This document shows, one piece after another, positions 1,163 through 7,676 of a stretch of DNA of 64,000 nucleotides (positions are counted from its first letter, which is position 1; each line of letters begins with the position of its first letter). Origin of the DNA: Falsiroseomonas algicola (GTDB lineage: Bacteria; Pseudomonadota; Alphaproteobacteria; Acetobacterales; Acetobacteraceae); the NCBI RefSeq assembly GCF_011040385.1, contig NZ_JAAIKB010000007.1, positions 1 through 64,000 on the forward strand. Reading direction: 5' to 3'. Position numbers and translations under genes: made by a program. The notes beneath the pieces were generated by a model that was not told the origin of the DNA, did no database searches, and saw only the letters and a program-made list of their open reading frames with translations.

Positions 1163-4100
1163 TTACCGGAAGTCGCGGGATGGCGGCAGGGCAGCGGCGT
1201 TCCGTTTCGCGTCGCGGATCGCGGGGTCGCGGGGGTCGTGCAGGTTGGGGCGCTCCACCTCATCCGCGCGGGCCAGGGTGCGCTTCCAGGCGGGGTCGTC
1301 ATCGTCGAGGCGATGCAGGCCATCCAGCATGGCGGACCAGTCATGCAGGCGCTTCACCAGCAGGTGGATGATGGGCACGGCGGATTGCTCATGCCGTTCG
1401 ACGCGGCCCTCCGCCATGACCAGGCGGGCGCCGACCACGGCGGCGCGGTCGCGGGTGACGATATCGGGGTAGAGGACGAGGTTGGCGGTGCCGAACTCAT
1501 CCTCCACGGTGAAGAAGACCACGCCCTTGGCGCTGCCGGGGCGCTGCCGCACCAGCACCAGGCCCGCGAGCTTCAGCCAGCGTGACTGCCGCGCGGCGGT
1601 GAGGGCGCGGGTATCGACGGCGCCGCGGTCGCGGATGGCGGCGCGCAGCAGCGCCATGGGGTGGCGGCGGAGCGAGAGGCCGGTCGCGGCATAGTCCAGC
1701 ACCGTCTCCTCCCCGGCGGTCTCGGGCGGCAGCAAAGGGAGCTGCGCGTCGCGGGCCTCGGAGAGGGGGAGGGGCGCCTCGATGCCGGCCGCTTCCCAGA
1801 GGGCACCGCGGCGGCCCTGCGACAGCGGGCCGAAGGCATCGGCGCGGGCGAGGGCCTGCATGGCGCCGCGATCGAGCCGCGCGCGGCGGGCGAGGTCGGG
1901 GATGTCGGCGAAGGGGGTTTCGGCGCGCGCGGCGGTCAGCGCTTCCGCGTGGTGCTGGTGCAGGCCGGCGATGAGGCGGAGGCCGAGGCGGAGGGAGGGC
2001 TGTGGCGTGCCGCTGAAGCCCTCTCCCCCCAGCGGGGGGAGAGGGTTGGGTGAGGGGGGCCGTGCCAAGACGTCATCGTGTGGGATGTTGGCGTTGCGCT
2101 GCGCCGACGCTGTCTCGCCACCAGCGCTGCGCGCGCCCCCCTCACCCAACCCTCTCCCCCCGTCGGGGGGAGAGGGCTTTTGGGCAGTAGAGGGAGAGGG
2201 ATTCGAAGAAGCGGCGGGCATCTCCAGCGTGCAGTCCCAATCCGACCGCGTGACATCCGCGGGCAGCACCGCCACGCCATGCTCCCGCGCATCGCGCACG
2301 ATCTGCGCGGGCGCGTAGAAGCCCATGGGCTGGCTGTTCAGCAGCGCGGCGGCGAAGGCGGCGGGGTGGTGGCGCTTGATCCAGGCGGAGATGTAGACGA
2401 GCTGCGCGAAGCTCGCCGCGTGGCTTTCGGGAAAGCCATAGGTGCCGAAGCCCTCGATCTGCTTGAAGCAGCGTTCGGCGAAGTCGGGTTCGTAGCCCCG
2501 GGCCACCATGCCGCCGCAAAAGTCCTGGCGGAATTTCCAGATCTCGCCGGTGTTGCGGAAGGTCGCCATGGCGCGGCGGAGCTGGTCGGCGCGGGAGGGG
2601 GAGAAGCCGGCGCCGACGATCGCGATCTGCATCGCCTGTTCCTGGAACAGCGGCACGCCGAGCGTCTTCGACAGCACGCCTTCGAGTTCCTTGGAGGGGT
2701 AGGTCGGCTCCTCCTCCCCGTTCCGGCGGCGGAGATAGGGGTGGACCATGTCGCCCTGGATCGGGCCGGGGCGCACGATCGCGACCTGCACGACCAGGTC
2801 GTAGAACTTCGCGGGGCGCAGCCGCGGCAGCATGTTCATCTGCGCGCGGCTTTCCACCTGGAAGACGCCGACGGAATCCGCGCGCTGCAGCATGGCGTAG
2901 GTGGCGGGATCGTCCTGCGGGACGGAAGCCAAGGTCCATTTTTCGCCCGTCGCGCCCTCGATCAGGTCGAAGGCGCGGCGGATGCAGGTGAGCATGCCGA
3001 GGCCCAGCACATCGACCTTGAGGATGCGCAAGGCCTCGATGTCGTCCTTGTCCCATTCGATGGTGGTGCGGCCTTCCATCGCGGCCTTCACGACGACGGT
3101 GTGCTCGATCAGCGGGCCCTTGGTGATGACGAAGCCGCCGACATGGGTGGCGAGGTGCCGGGGGAAGTCCTGCACCTCCTCCGCGATCTCCATCGCCATG
3201 CGGAGCTTCGGATCGCCCTCCGGCGCATAGCCATTGTCGGCGGCGAGGTCATTGAGTGACTTGTCGCCGGAACCCCAGACGGATTTGGCGAGGCGCGCGG
3301 TGACGTCCTCCGTCAGCCCCATCGCCTTGCCCACTTCGCGGATGGCGCTGCGCTCGCGGTAGCGGATCAGGGTCGCGGTCAGCGCGGCACGATCGCGGCC
3401 GTATCTCGAGAAGATGTGCTGGATGACCTCCTCGCGGCGCTCATGCTCGAAATCGACGTCGATGTCGGGCGGTTCGTCGCGGGCGGCGCTGATGAAGCGC
3501 TCGAACAGCATGTCGTGCTTGTCGGGCGGCACGGCGGTGATGCCGAGCACGTAGCAGATGGCGGAATTGGCCGCCGATCCGCGGCCCTGGCAGAGGATTT
3601 CCTTCGACCGCGCGAAGCGCACGATCTCATGCACCGTCAGGAAATAGGCGGCGTAGTCGAGCTGCGCGATGAGCGCGAGTTCATGCGCGATCTGCCGCGC
3701 CACCTTGGGCGGTGTGCCAAGGGGGTAGCGTTCCAGGCAGGCGGCCTCCACGCGCAGCGCCAGCGTCTGCTGGGCGGTCAGGCCGGGGTCCAGGATCTCC
3801 TCCGGATATTCGTAGGAGAGGTCGCGGAGCGAGAAGCTGCAGGCGCGGGTGACGCGGAGCGTGGCGGCGAGGGCTTCCGGATGGCGGGGCAGGCGGCGGG
3901 CGACTTCCTCGGGCGGCAGCAGATGGGCCTCGGCGTTGGGTTCGGCGGCGAAGCCTAGCTCCTCCACCGTGGTGCCGAGGCGGATGGCGGCGAGCACATC
4001 GGCGACGCGGCGGCGTTCAGGCGCGTGGTAGCGCACGCCGCCGGCGGCGATGAGGCCGAGCCCCGCGCTGCCCGCGGCCTCCGCCAGGCGATCGAGCCGG

Positions 4101-4612
4101 GCCTGGTCGTCGCCGCGGCAGCGATGATCGACGGCCAGCATGAGGGGGAGCGCGAGGCGCCTGCCGAAGGCATTGGCATCGGCGCGCAGGCGCTGCGCCA
4201 GGGCGGGATCGGCGTTCGGGATGCGGGCGAGGACCTGGCCCTCCGCGGCGGCGATGAGGGCATCGCGGGTCAGGCGCGTCTCGCCCTTCTCGCCTTCCAT
4301 CCGGGCCTCCGACAGCATGCGGCAGAGGCGGCCCCAGGCGGGGCGGTCCGACGGCCAGGCGAGATATTCGGTGGCGTCGTCGAGCACGAGGCGGATGCCC
4401 GGGACGTAGCGGATGCCGACCTGCTCCGCCGCCACCATGCCGCGCACCAGCCCGGCGACGGAGTTGCGGTCCGCGATGCCGATGGCGGGCATGCCCAGCA
4501 CCTTGGCGGCGGCGACGAGTTCGCGGGGGTGGGAGGCGCCTTCGAGGAAGGTGAAGTTCGACAGCGCGGCGAGTTCGGCGAACACGCCTAGAGATGCCCA
4601 TGGATGAACCAC
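1163..4612 (-). CDS. dnaE2: Error-prone DNA polymerase DnaE2 (ImuC), C-family
   Basis: Alternative DNA polymerase III alpha subunit that performs translesion synthesis with ImuA and ImuB in the SOS response. A PHP domain is at the N terminus (SNFTFLEGASHPREL, then ADRNSVAGLVR) and the catalytic PDIDVDF motif is near residues 382-388. An OB-fold region (LAGLVLVRQRPGSAKGVVFFTVEDE) is near the C terminus. The GTG at 4612 is chosen as start because it overlaps the end of imuB; a second GTG at 4585, just after the imuB stop, is equally possible. The product, about 1149 residues, is longer than the usual 1050-1080 because about 75 residues (roughly 798-874) come from a palindromic element inserted in frame between the finger region and the domain starting SLRLGLRLIAGL. 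All catalytic motifs seem intact, so it is probably active. Confidence 0.93.
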   Translation of the reverse strand: MVHPWASLGVFAELAALSNFTFLEGASHPRELVAAAKVLGMPAIGIADRNSVAGLVRGMVAAEQVGIRYVPGIRLVLDDATEYLAWPSDRPAWGRLCRMLSEARMEGEKGETRLTRDALIAAAEGQVLARIPNADPALAQRLRADANAFGRRLALPLMLAVDHRCRGDDQARLDRLAEAAGSAGLGLIAAGGVRYHAPERRRVADVLAAIRLGTTVEELGFAAEPNAEAHLLPPEEVARRLPRHPEALAATLRVTRACSFSLRDLSYEYPEEILDPGLTAQQTLALRVEAACLERYPLGTPPKVARQIAHELALIAQLDYAAYFLTVHEIVRFARSKEILCQGRGSAANSAICYVLGITAVPPDKHDMLFERFISAARDEPPDIDVDFEHERREEVIQHIFSRYGRDRAALTATLIRYRERSAIREVGKAMGLTEDVTARLAKSVWGSGDKSLNDLAADNGYAPEGDPKLRMAMEIAEEVQDFPRHLATHVGGFVITKGPLIEHTVVVKAAMEGRTTIEWDKDDIEALRILKVDVLGLGMLTCIRRAFDLIEGATGEKWTLASVPQDDPATYAMLQRADSVGVFQVESRAQMNMLPRLRPAKFYDLVVQVAIVRPGPIQGDMVHPYLRRRNGEEEPTYPSKELEGVLSKTLGVPLFQEQAMQIAIVGAGFSPSRADQLRRAMATFRNTGEIWKFRQDFCGGMVARGYEPDFAERCFKQIEGFGTYGFPESHAASFAQLVYISAWIKRHHPAAFAAALLNSQPMGFYAPAQIVRDAREHGVAVLPADVTRSDWDCTLEMPAASSNPSPSTAQKPSPPDGGRGLGEGGARSAGGETASAQRNANIPHDDVLARPPSPNPLPPLGGEGFSGTPQPSLRLGLRLIAGLHQHHAEALTAARAETPFADIPDLARRARLDRGAMQALARADAFGPLSQGRRGALWEAAGIEAPLPLSEARDAQLPLLPPETAGEETVLDYAATGLSLRRHPMALLRAAIRDRGAVDTRALTAARQSRWLKLAGLVLVRQRPGSAKGVVFFTVEDEFGTANLVLYPDIVTRDRAAVVGARLVMAEGRVERHEQSAVPIIHLLVKRLHDWSAMLDGLHRLDDDDPAWKRTLARADEVERPNLHDPRDPAIRDAKRNAAALPPSRDFR
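1991..2221. repeat. Palindromic repeat insertion inside dnaE2
   Basis: Two 41-bp copies of one sequence lie in opposite orientation at 2019-2059 and 2136-2176, differing at two central bases, with 76 bp between them. Each copy contains its own hairpin: CCCTCTCCCCCC, three loop bases, then GGGGGGAGAGGG at 2019-2045 and its counterpart. The element keeps the dnaE2 frame open and encodes low-complexity Pro/Gly/Ser sequence (for example PSPPDGGRGLGEGG and PSPNPLPPLGGEGF). It has no ORF of its own and resembles a non-autonomous REP/MITE-like element. The precise ends and any target duplication cannot be fixed without an uninterrupted homologue. Confidence 0.8.
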
Positions 4613-6117
4613 CGCGCCTCCGCCCCGAAGCCGAGGCGGCAGACCCAGAGGCGGGCGCCGGTGGCGAGTTCCACGCGGTAATAGTCCCGCGCCTGGCGGC
4701 CGGGCGGGTCGCGCCACCATTCGGGCTCCAGCCGCTCCGGCCCCTCCGCCGCGCGCACCCGCAGCGCCTGGTTGCCGATGCGCAGCAGCTGCGGCGGTGC
4801 GTCGGGCAGCAGGGCCATGGCCGAGACCTCCCGCGGCCGGCGCAGCAGGCGGACGGGGCGCATGGCGCGGGGCCAGCCTTCCGGCACCGTGACGGCGGCG
4901 GTGGCGGCGACGCGCATCGCCTCCCGCTCCGGCCAGTGGGAGGGGCGGGGTGCCAGGCGCCAAAGCTGGGTGCGCTGGGCCAGGCGGTCGAAGAGGCGGG
5001 CCAGCTCCTCCTGCCGCGCGGCGGCGCCGGCGCCGGCGAAGCCGGATTGCAGGCCGGTCAGGGGTTCGGTGACGGCGGCGGCCAGGCCCATGCGTTCGAA
5101 GCCGTGGCCGGGCTCCAGCGCATCCAGCCGGTCGCGGAACAGGCGGGCGAGATGCGCGGGATCGCGGCTGGCGAGGCTGGTGCCGATCGCGATCTCCTGC
5201 ACCCCGCCATCGACGCGATGCGCCCGTAGCACCAGGCGCCGCGCGCCCTGGGACTGGGCCGTCAGCCGGGCGCAGAGGGCATCGAGCAGCAGCGGCATCA
5301 CCGCATCGATGCCGGCGCGCGTCGCGATGGGTTCCAGGAATTCCCGCGACACCTCGAAGACCGGGGGCGGGCGGAGCGGCGTGATGGGGGTATCGAGCAG
5401 GCCGGAGGCCTCGTCCAGCGCGCGCAGCAGCGCCGCGCCGAAGCGGCGGGAGAGCGGGCCGCGGGGCTGGCGGTGCAGGTCCGCGACACGCCGCAGGCCG
5501 AGGCGCGAGAGCGCCGCGACGGTGTCGGGATCGATCGGCAGGGCCGAGAGGGGGAGGGCCGCCACCGCCTCCCGGTCCCCGCCCGGGGCCACCACCAGCC
5601 CGTCCCGCCCGCCGCGCGCCAGGGCCAGGGCGGCGGCGGCGGCATCGGCCACGACGCCGCGGGCCTGCACGCCGAGCCGCGCCAGGCCGGCCGTGGCGCG
5701 GGCCATCAGCGCGGCCTCTCCCCCTGCCAGATGGGCGGCGCCGGCGATGTCGAGCAGCAGGGCATCGGCGCCACGCGTCGCGACCAGCGGCGTGAAGCGC
5801 AGGCACCAGAGGCCGAGGTCGCGGAGGAACAGGGCATCGGCGGCGGGATCGGCCTCCAGCGCCTGCGCCTCCGGCGCCACGGCCCGGGCATCGCCCAGCG
5901 CCTGGCCGGGGCGGATGCCGGCCACGCCATCGCAGGCCACCACCGCGCGGCGGGGCCCGATTCCCTGCCAGAGCAGCACGGGGCCTTCCAGGCCGAGGCG
6001 CCGCAGCCGGTCCACGGGCAGGGAAGGCAGCAGCAGGGCCAAATGGCGGCGGGCGGACGATTCGAGGGGCAGGTCGGTGCCGGCGCCCATCGTGGTGACG
6101 GTCATTGTGGCGGTCAT
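4588..6117 (-). CDS. imuB: ImuB, Y-family polymerase-like SOS mutagenesis protein
   Basis: Catalytically inactive relative of Y-family DNA polymerases that links ImuA and DnaE2 to the beta clamp during damage-induced mutagenesis. The 509-residue product begins the family core at RRHLALLLPSLPVDRL (about residues 23-38). It has a helix-hairpin-helix stretch ALPLSALPIDPDTVAALSRLG and a little-finger-like region PPPVFEVSREFLEPI. The acidic residues that bind metal in active Y polymerases are not evident, as is usual for ImuB. An ATG at 6090 is an alternative start. The gene overlaps dnaE2 and lies 21 bp downstream of a near-consensus LexA box, so the pair should be one SOS operon. The usual partner imuA is not adjacent; it lies about 23.5 kb away. 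Confidence 0.9.
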   Translation of the reverse strand: MTATMTVTTMGAGTDLPLESSARRHLALLLPSLPVDRLRRLGLEGPVLLWQGIGPRRAVVACDGVAGIRPGQALGDARAVAPEAQALEADPAADALFLRDLGLWCLRFTPLVATRGADALLLDIAGAAHLAGGEAALMARATAGLARLGVQARGVVADAAAAALALARGGRDGLVVAPGGDREAVAALPLSALPIDPDTVAALSRLGLRRVADLHRQPRGPLSRRFGAALLRALDEASGLLDTPITPLRPPPVFEVSREFLEPIATRAGIDAVMPLLLDALCARLTAQSQGARRLVLRAHRVDGGVQEIAIGTSLASRDPAHLARLFRDRLDALEPGHGFERMGLAAAVTEPLTGLQSGFAGAGAAARQEELARLFDRLAQRTQLWRLAPRPSHWPEREAMRVAATAAVTVPEGWPRAMRPVRLLRRPREVSAMALLPDAPPQLLRIGNQALRVRAAEGPERLEPEWWRDPPGRQARDYYRVELATGARLWVCRLGFGAEARWFIHGHL

Positions 6118-6311: not shown

Positions 6312-7676
6312 ATGCCCGATACGAATGCGGCGGCCGGATCGATCCCCCTGGCCGCCGCCGACCTGCTGCGGCGGATCGAGGCAAGGGACGCCATCGTGGG
6401 CGTCATCGGCCTCGGCTATGTCGGATTGCCGCTGGCGCTCGCCACCATCCGCGCCGGCCACCGGGTGATCGGCTTCGACATCGATGCGCCGAAGGTCGCG
6501 GGGCTGAACGGCGGCCGGTCGCCGCTGCGCCATATCGGCGATGCCGCGCTCGGCGACGCCATCGCCGCCGGCGACTTCCAGGCCACCACCGATTTCGACC
6601 GGCTGGAGGAGGCGGATATCCTCCTCATCTGCGTGCCGACGCCGCTCGACCGGCACCGGGAGCCCGACCTCTCCTTCGTCGAGGGCACGGCCCGCGCCAT
6701 CGCGCGGCGGCTGCGCAGCGGGCAGATGGTGGTGCTGGAATCCACCACCTGGCCGGGCACCACGCTGGAACTGGTGAAGCCGATCCTGGAGGAAACGGGG
6801 CTGCGCAGCGGCCTCGACTTCCTGCTGGCCTATTCGCCGGAACGCGAGGATCCCGGCAACGCCGTCTTCACCACCGCGGCCATCCCGAAGGTGGTCGGGG
6901 GGGACGGGCGCGTGGCGCTCGACCTCGCCTGCGCCTTCTATGCCGGCATCGTCTCCCGCGTCGTGCCCGTCTCCTCCGCCGCCACGGCGGAGGCGGTGAA
7001 GCTGACGGAGAACATCTTCCGCGCGGTCAACATCGCCCTCGTGAACGAGCTCAAGACCATCTACGACGCGATGGGGATCGATGTGTGGGAGGTGATCGAG
7101 GCGGCCTCCACCAAGCCCTTCGGCTACATGCCCTTCCAGCCCGGCCCCGGGCTCGGCGGCCACTGCATCCCGATCGATCCCTTCTACCTGACGTGGAAGG
7201 CGCGGGAATTCGGCGTCAACACGCGCTTCATCGAACTGGCGGGCGAGGTGAACACGCTGATGCCGCGCCTGGTGGTGGAGAAGCTGGCCCAGGCGCTGGA
7301 CCGGCAGGCAAGGCGGGGGCTGAACGGGGCGCGCATCCTGCTGCTCGGCATGGCCTACAAGCGCAACGTGGACGATTTGCGCGAAAGCCCGTCCCTGGTG
7401 CTGACGCGGCTGCTGGAAGCCCGCGGCGCCCGGGTGGACTACCACGACCCGCATGTGCCGGAGGTGCCGCGCACGCGGGAGCATCCGGAACTCGCGGGGC
7501 GGCGGTCCGTGCCGGCGGATGCAGGGAGCGTGGCGCGCTACGACGCGGTGCTGGTGGCGACGGACCATGACGCGGTGGACCACGCCGCCATCGCGCGCGC
7601 GGCGCGGCTGGTGGTGGATACGCGCAATGCCTGCGCGCGGGCCGGCGTGCACGGCCCGCACATCGTGAAGGCGTGA
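6312..7676 (+). CDS. Nucleotide-sugar dehydrogenase, UDP-GlcNAc 6-dehydrogenase-like (WbpA family)
   Basis: Predicted to oxidise the C6 hydroxyl of a UDP-N-acetylhexosamine to the uronic acid in two NAD-dependent steps, supplying amino-uronic acid donors. The N-terminal Rossmann motif VIGLGYVGLPLALA is near residues 35-48. The substrate-binding central motif is PGPGLGGHCIPIDPFYLTW, whose Cys is the expected thioester nucleophile. The C-terminal UDP-binding domain starts near ILLLGMAYKRNVDDLRESPS. The extended GGHCIPIDPFYL motif favours the WbpA/WbpO type over UDP-glucose dehydrogenase. It overlaps the next gene, a 2-epimerase, by 4 bp. The exact substrate (UDP-GlcNAc or UDP-ManNAc) cannot be fixed from sequence. 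Confidence 0.85.
   Translation: MPDTNAAAGSIPLAAADLLRRIEARDAIVGVIGLGYVGLPLALATIRAGHRVIGFDIDAPKVAGLNGGRSPLRHIGDAALGDAIAAGDFQATTDFDRLEEADILLICVPTPLDRHREPDLSFVEGTARAIARRLRSGQMVVLESTTWPGTTLELVKPILEETGLRSGLDFLLAYSPEREDPGNAVFTTAAIPKVVGGDGRVALDLACAFYAGIVSRVVPVSSAATAEAVKLTENIFRAVNIALVNELKTIYDAMGIDVWEVIEAASTKPFGYMPFQPGPGLGGHCIPIDPFYLTWKAREFGVNTRFIELAGEVNTLMPRLVVEKLAQALDRQARRGLNGARILLLGMAYKRNVDDLRESPSLVLTRLLEARGARVDYHDPHVPEVPRTREHPELAGRRSVPADAGSVARYDAVLVATDHDAVDHAAIARAARLVVDTRNACARAGVHGPHIVKA

Follow-up and report, generated by a model that had tools for sequence, protein, structure and literature searches.

The error-prone DNA polymerase DnaE2 probably possesses a permissive loop that repeatedly takes in abundant palindromic repeats, of which selection keeps those lying in frame, a reading to which we assign a probability of roughly 0.7. 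In Falsiroseomonas algicola this loop is extended by an inverted pair of repeats, each a predicted intrastrand triplex motif. Among the genomes compared, the site occurs both filled and empty, the reading frame stays open through the insert, other copies of the repeat lie elsewhere in the genome, and the same loop carries different repeats within the genus and in other lineages.

In the mechanism proposed here, the triplex repeats would constitute a dispersed, probably non-autonomous family of palindromic repeats that presumably move by copying and would land either randomly or close to the ends of genes, with almost all of those inside genes being lost. An inverted pair of them would have been inserted in frame at the tip of a surface β-hairpin of DnaE2, where it would be translated as a disordered stretch rich in Pro, Gly, Ala and Ser that the enzyme tolerates. 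The loop would let in-frame, stop-free repeats survive whatever their sequence. We infer that the DnaE2 protein contains the insert peptide and that the insert-bearing enzyme still works.

The dnaE2 gene and its insert

The dnaE2 frame spans 4612 to 1163 (minus strand) of the window (the whole 64,000-nt stretch of DNA analysed) and encodes 1,149 residues with no internal stop. In a profile search it scores 1312.3 bits against NF004225 (cut-off 939) over residues 10-1148, which places it in DnaE2 as a full-length member. The relevant features are as follows.

1163..4612, minus strand: dnaE2 (imuC), error-prone DNA polymerase bearing the insert (NCBIfam NF004225 match, open frame)
2003..2218, minus strand: 72-codon loop, residues 799-870 (comparison with the closest relative, G006; low AlphaFold2 pLDDT)
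2016..2060, minus strand: second arm in the dnaE2 sense, an inverted copy with a C-rich third strand followed by the hairpin
2061..2134, no strand: 74-nt spacer between the arms, with no second copy in this genome
2135..2179, minus strand: first arm in the dnaE2 sense, with a 12-bp hairpin, 3-nt loop, 2-nt link and G-rich third strand; a potential purine-motif triplex
2180..2218, minus strand: rest of the loop, on its 5′ side in the dnaE2 sense; the plus strand has another GGGAGAGGG run
4588..6117, minus strand: imuB-like gene directly upstream of dnaE2 (weak Y-family matches only)

A repeat search delimits two inverted arms of 45 nt, 96% complementary and separated by 74 nt, each containing its own hairpin of 12-13 bp. 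The preliminary description, made from the sequence alone, had reported two inverted 41-bp copies in the open frame of dnaE2, each with a hairpin, and both the anatomy and the coordinates prove exact: with the 3-nt loop left free, the 41-nt unit matches perfectly at 2019-2059 (+) and 2136-2176 (-), nowhere else in the window, and not once in 100 dinucleotide shuffles of it. The loop measures 216 nt against 3 nt in the closest relative (G006), a gain of 71 codons that is close to the 75 or so residues first estimated, and four of the six reading frames of the arm pair are free of stops. The spacer matches only itself in this genome, with weak partial matches in two relatives (G004 and G007).

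Folded as single strands, the arm pair is far more stable than its shuffles (z of -12.4 as DNA and -13.2 as RNA). The third strand of the arm, read antiparallel, fits the purine strand at 12 of 12 positions if T opposite A is allowed. With a stem of 12 and loops of 3 and 2, the arm falls within the general definition of a G/C-rich intrastrand triplex (ITxF), which calls for a stem of 6-15 nt and loops of 1-6 nt and permits one mismatch above 7 nt. Each arm is thus predicted to be a G/C-rich intrastrand triplex motif of 12 triads that resembles the TM repeat discussed below without being identical to it.

Relationship to known repeats

In the part of their paper drawn on here, Holder et al. (2015; PMC4666352) describe the TM repeat (TM_ECO, earlier called PIT), present in 3610 copies in 262 proteobacterial genomes. 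In E. coli MG1655 it is given as always intergenic, with five inverted pairs. A stable triplex is reported in vitro, but a stable triplex in vivo is without support, and earlier work is cited as having found the motif to be without promoter or terminator activity. The dnaE2 arm shares the succession of C-rich strand, short loop, purine strand, short link and G-rich third strand, as well as the many copies per genome, and its core agrees with the E. coli sequences of Table 1 in that paper (CCCTCTCCC..GGGAGAGGG..GGGTGAGGG). By the coordinates in the same table, four of the five inverted MG1655 pairs have their hairpins outside and their G-rich strands inside, as does the dnaE2 pair. Unlike TM_ECO, which as described there has 9-nt stems and a 3-nt link and is intergenic, the dnaE2 arm has 12-triad stems and a 2-nt link and lies inside a protein gene. 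The strict TM_ECO pattern, CCCTCNCCC N3-6 GGGNGAGGG N3 GGGNGAGGG, accordingly has no match in the window, the stem being longer and the second link only 2 nt.

A comparable repeat is found in Enterobacter sp. 638, where CCCTCTCCCXX(X)GGGAGAGGG units occur in one hundred copies, often at the 3′ ends of genes; they have the same hairpin core as the dnaE2 arm, and the portion of that report consulted mentions no intragenic copy (PMC2869309). Judged by sequence, the arm is of the triplex-unit type known, from the cited portions of these reports, in E. coli, Enterobacter and other proteobacteria.

Other repeat classes can be set aside. In the sections cited here, Di Nocera et al. (2013; PMC3733652) describe REPs lying in frame within genes for DNA repair, including dnaE2, and consider flexible linkers and, speculatively, mutator effects; a shared insertion site is named there only for recB of two Xanthomonas species, and Acetobacteraceae are listed as being without CGTC repeats. 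The present insert resembles those REPs in consisting of palindromic repeats and dimers placed in frame in a repair gene, but the REPs belong to the GTAG or CGTC families. The unpaired tag of these superfamilies is absent from the arms, whose stem flanks, by eye, are AAG and TTGGGTGAGG. Mobilisation of the REPIN/RAYT kind was rejected, the Y1 transposase (PF01797) being found in none of 15 genomes of the genus and in 5 of 14 control genomes. So was a MITE with a conserved body: the spacer is unique in its genome, and the spacers of four other pairs in relatives, with which it has nothing in common, are no more similar than shuffles.

The insert had been likened initially to the Rickettsia palindromic elements, which, in the text cited, are about 150 bp long, encode a conserved peptide and lie in many genes (PMC10969869). 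Both are palindromic DNA that adds peptide in frame, but the units of dnaE2 are short, of triplex type, joined by a unique spacer and confined to one gene. With the spacer not conserved and the other copies examined outside coding frames, the kinship was dropped on anatomy, the two being set apart by description.

The type of element is therefore already known, and so are REPs in dnaE2, reported in 2013 (PMC3733652, in the sections cited). Within the literature searched, two things appear to be unreported: a triplex-type pair inside a coding frame, which stands against the purely intergenic occurrence described for MG1655 in the cited part of PMC4666352, and a single DnaE2 loop holding several unlike palindromic repeats. 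No report of palindromic repeats recurring at one DnaE2 loop was found in that literature, in which only Di Nocera et al. came up for palindromic DNA in DnaE2.

Copies elsewhere in the genome

The 21-mer core of the arm has 16 exact matches in the genome and 6 with one or two mismatches, two of which overlap at a single place (C22:757759/757770). The reversed 21-mer likewise gives 16 matches. Since the unit comes close to being a mirror repeat, these coincide with the forward matches at an offset of one base, and the control provides no independent background. A hairpin pattern with 9-nt arms finds 22 places (reversed control, 0), and a wider pattern finds 66 (reversed control, 8) and brings in a second type of repeat, termed C-type, with arms CCCTCCCCCGC. 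In the C-type pairs inspected, the polarity is opposite to that of the T-type, with the tails outside. Copies of the T-type often adjoin gene ends.

As a check, the preliminary description had suggested searching the genome for the arm and seeing how often it lies in coding regions; the arm does recur, as the matches above show. A frame test for intragenic copies was applied to 54 hairpin entries of this genome, one place being entered twice (L019 and L066), and only the two dnaE2 arms lie in an open, coding-like frame. The test recognises 13 of 15 dnaE2 inserts; a stricter version, which missed 3 of 6, was replaced. The C-type places examined amount to 28 loci among the matches listed, of the 66 places found by the wider pattern. 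Two C-type inverted pairs with their tails outside, at G000:C6:50130-50203 and C55:135404-135477, fall outside coding frames by the same test and are of the type found in the dnaE2 loop of one relative (G013). Elsewhere in the genus, ten out of a larger number of places with peptide matches were checked for other intragenic pairs by open frames and third-position G+C; they are intergenic or undecided, with no clear second case, and the nearest candidate (L163) sits between two co-directional frames.

Occupancy of the loop across the genus

Fifteen genomes of the genus were compared, from this one (G000) to G014, with Falsiroseomonas stagni (G004) and F. oryziterrae among them, judging by sequence identity ahead of the loop. 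The loop is in frame and 126-216 nt long in seven (G000, G005, G007, G009, G011, G013 and G014) and in frame and 3-18 nt long in another seven. In the remaining genome, G012 (L032), a loop of 17 nt breaks the dnaE2 frame and may be a remnant left by a lost insert, or else an error of assembly. The site is empty in the nearest relatives, G006 (98% identical) and G004 (94%), which supports the view that the palindromic DNA is an in-frame insertion. Loop length also varies in relatives without palindromes, in line with the early suggestion that the position tolerates insertion.

The inserts are not alike. By eye, the loops of G000 and G011 contain T-type pairs, that of G007 contains one unit of each kind, and those of G005, G009, G013 and G014 contain pairs with their tails outside; the pair in G013 (93% identical) is C-type. 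The palindromic inserts of the genus thus comprise at least two repeat types in two polarities.

Genomes with a dnaE2 insert also contain more hairpins of the wider kind, 66, 66, 68, 95, 113, 135 and 216 as against 6, 24, 25, 34, 40, 49, 67 and 69 in those without (Mann-Whitney p 0.006, uncorrected for kinship and with the dnaE2 arms included in the counts); with the pattern reversed as a control, each genome gives 0-10.

It could be that the clade's ancestor received a single insertion, which was later remodelled, recombined with other genomic copies or lost. On a DnaE2 tree built with the loop removed, G001, G002, G003 and G008, at 67-68% identity, form a separate part, and the carriers make up 7 of 11 rows of one clade, as common descent would have it. 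G013 and G009, which belong to different sub-clades, moreover share one C-type subtype (z 16.8 against block shuffles), but the same subtype occurs elsewhere in three genomes (L180, L184 and L190), so that G013 and G009 could have gained it separately. Among neighbouring tips, the loop of G000 holds a T-type pair, that of G013 a C-type pair, and those of G006 and G004 are empty; the fewest changes on the tree are seven for three states and five for presence alone, with the topology entered by hand and G012 scored as empty. Within the genus an old insertion could account for some of the carriers, but not for the unlike repeats of other lineages described below, and as an account of the whole it is tenable though somewhat doubtful.

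The loop in other lineages

The comparison was extended to 107 distinct dnaE2 loci, from 80 named loci and 30 more after removal of three duplicates (L068, L069 and L082, equal to G004, G005 and G002; no other pair is identical). The sample is non-random and consists of close relatives and best matches to this protein. With long loops defined as at least 90 nt (one locus, L111, with a loop of 18 nt, counting as short), a perfect inverted repeat of at least 12 bp is present in 13 of 16 long loops and in 1 of 91 short ones (Fisher p 4e-13). Such stems number 24 in 5,738 nt of loop and 27 in 329,122 nt outside it. Three of the long loops have no stem of 12 bp, the longest being 11 bp in L026 and 9 bp in L078 and none being found in L108, which weighs against the permissive-loop reading. 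In a control of nine DnaE1-like loci (L154-L162), the hairpin pattern occurs in none and a 12-bp stem in one.

Long palindromic loops outside the genus occur in a Rhodospirillaceae MAG (L076, with a C-type layout by eye), a Rhizobium MAG (L078), a MAG labelled only Proteobacteria (L079), and Erythrobacter-like and sphingomonad genomes (L081, L093, L099, L112 and L132). By eye, the repeats in these loops are mostly unlike each other. Recurrence of the inserts was examined in the genomes of 7 of 10 loci, with the inserts of L132, L079 and L078 as queries. The L079 insert is a dispersed dimer with 72 matches in its own genome, both strands counted, and the L132 insert recurs at nearly full length at five other places in its own (31 matches, both strands counted) and so has the conserved body of a MITE, unlike the insert of G000. 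The L078 insert has four short partial matches in its own genome. Weak matches to the insert of another locus occur in the genomes of L076 (1) and L081 (2), and none was found in those of L099 and L101.

Palindromic repeats of at least four kinds occupy the DnaE2 loop, each of them dispersed through its own genome as well: the T-type, the C-type, the L079 dimer and the L132 element. Repeats within genes are usually taken as isolated accidents, whereas this loop is filled in near species and in separate lineages, and it offers a natural experiment on the entry of palindromic repeats into genes, on the pace of their turnover and on whether they alter a mutagenic polymerase.

Such recurrence could conceivably reflect an attraction of repeats to the dnaE2 locus or its transcript, for instance through hairpin-primed copying in SOS synthesis. 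Several lineages and several repeat types at one loop would fit an attraction of this kind, as would the finding that, of the copies examined in this genome, those in dnaE2 alone are intragenic, and DNA repair genes are said, in the cited sections of Di Nocera et al. (PMC3733652), to be prominent among genes carrying REPs. Inspection of the insert junction by eye against relatives, however, reveals neither a target motif nor a clean target duplication, and survivor bias is a simpler account of the same pattern. Targeted capture is therefore improbable, and the preferred reading remains a loop that lets incoming repeats survive.

A second insertion-prone site lies near residue 125 of DnaE2, where 13 of 106 rows (L032 left out) have at least 25 extra residues. 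Only one of these 13 long inserts contains a stem of at least 12 bp, a scarcity that neutral tolerance at a permissive loop does not by itself account for, though the inserts near residue 125 look old and shared by a clade. In Erythrobacter-like DnaE2 proteins (L096, L104 and L109 among others), inserts at this site are common to several genomes and include RRPGPDPG..DPGFRRDD-like peptides. These Erythrobacter-like inserts are perhaps decayed old repeats. In the DnaE2 of L132, a Sphingomonadaceae MAG, SRRDAE..SASLRE-like peptides are present both near residue 125 and in the loop, and a partial match to the insert lies 2.2 kb from the loop insert on the same contig, as fits a second insert in dnaE2. 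The two sites of this gene seem to hold inserts from a single repeat family.

Protein context and selection

An AlphaFold2 model of DnaE2, built on 36 sequences, has a mean pLDDT of 83.3 and a pTM of 0.83. Residues 803-859 and 863-865 fall below a pLDDT of 50, between strands at 795-797 and 873-875, and the Pfam family HHH_6 begins, at profile position 22, right after the insert. The insert had at first been placed in a linker after the polymerase core; the model locates it instead at the tip of a predicted β-hairpin where the helix-hairpin-helix domain begins, rather than in an inter-domain linker. The tip itself is predicted to be disordered.

On codon comparison, the parts of dnaE2 that flank the insert are under purifying selection, with dN/dS of 0.06-0.24 for the N-terminal part (7 of 11 pairs, the other four being blocked by a stop in G004 or G010) and 0.09-0.35 for the C-terminal part (11 of 11 pairs). 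The insert of G000 may be too recent for these flanking values to bear on it. G004 (L028) and G010 (L033) each have one in-frame stop in the N-terminal part of an otherwise conserved gene; together with the frame break in G012, these stops mean that dnaE2 is not kept intact in every species.

The position of the site some 2 kb from the start of the contig, and the tendency of repeats to break assemblies, raise the question of an assembly artefact or a decayed gene. Against this stand the unique spacer, a frame open over all 1,149 residues, the low flanking dN/dS and the presence of inserts in the same loop in many separate assemblies, which make such an explanation highly improbable.

The inserts might instead be adaptive, with the peptide or an mRNA hairpin tuning the abundance or activity of the polymerase. 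That 7 of the 15 genomes in the genus carry them in frame is compatible with such a role, as is the very stable fold predicted for the RNA, and the mutator effects speculated on in the cited sections of Di Nocera et al. (PMC3733652) would be of this kind. Sequence, length, polarity and the very presence of an insert nevertheless differ between near species, so that no particular peptide is conserved, and adaptation is an unlikely explanation. More far-reaching, and doubtful to much the same degree, is the idea that the β-hairpin tip serves as a capture site spanning lineages, at which functional inserts would retune the SOS mutasome through a disordered arm or a transcript hairpin; if it were true, repeat DNA would act as a switchable module of a mutator enzyme. 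Tolerance of repeats by a permissive loop, with selection for an open frame, is the reading preferred here.

Neighbourhood of dnaE2

The imuB-like gene upstream of dnaE2 scores 20.6 bits against IMS_C (Pfam), just below the cut-off of 20.7, and four DNA polymerase IV families match it at E-values of 3e-7 to 5e-5, all below their own cut-offs. Farther upstream, at 6312-7676 of the window, a dehydrogenase-like frame is recognisable by eye, with no imuA noticed alongside. At the other end, at 61-140 of the window and beside the 3′ end of a manganese catalase gene, there are runs such as GCGCGGGGGAGGGAG that resemble eroded C-type repeats.
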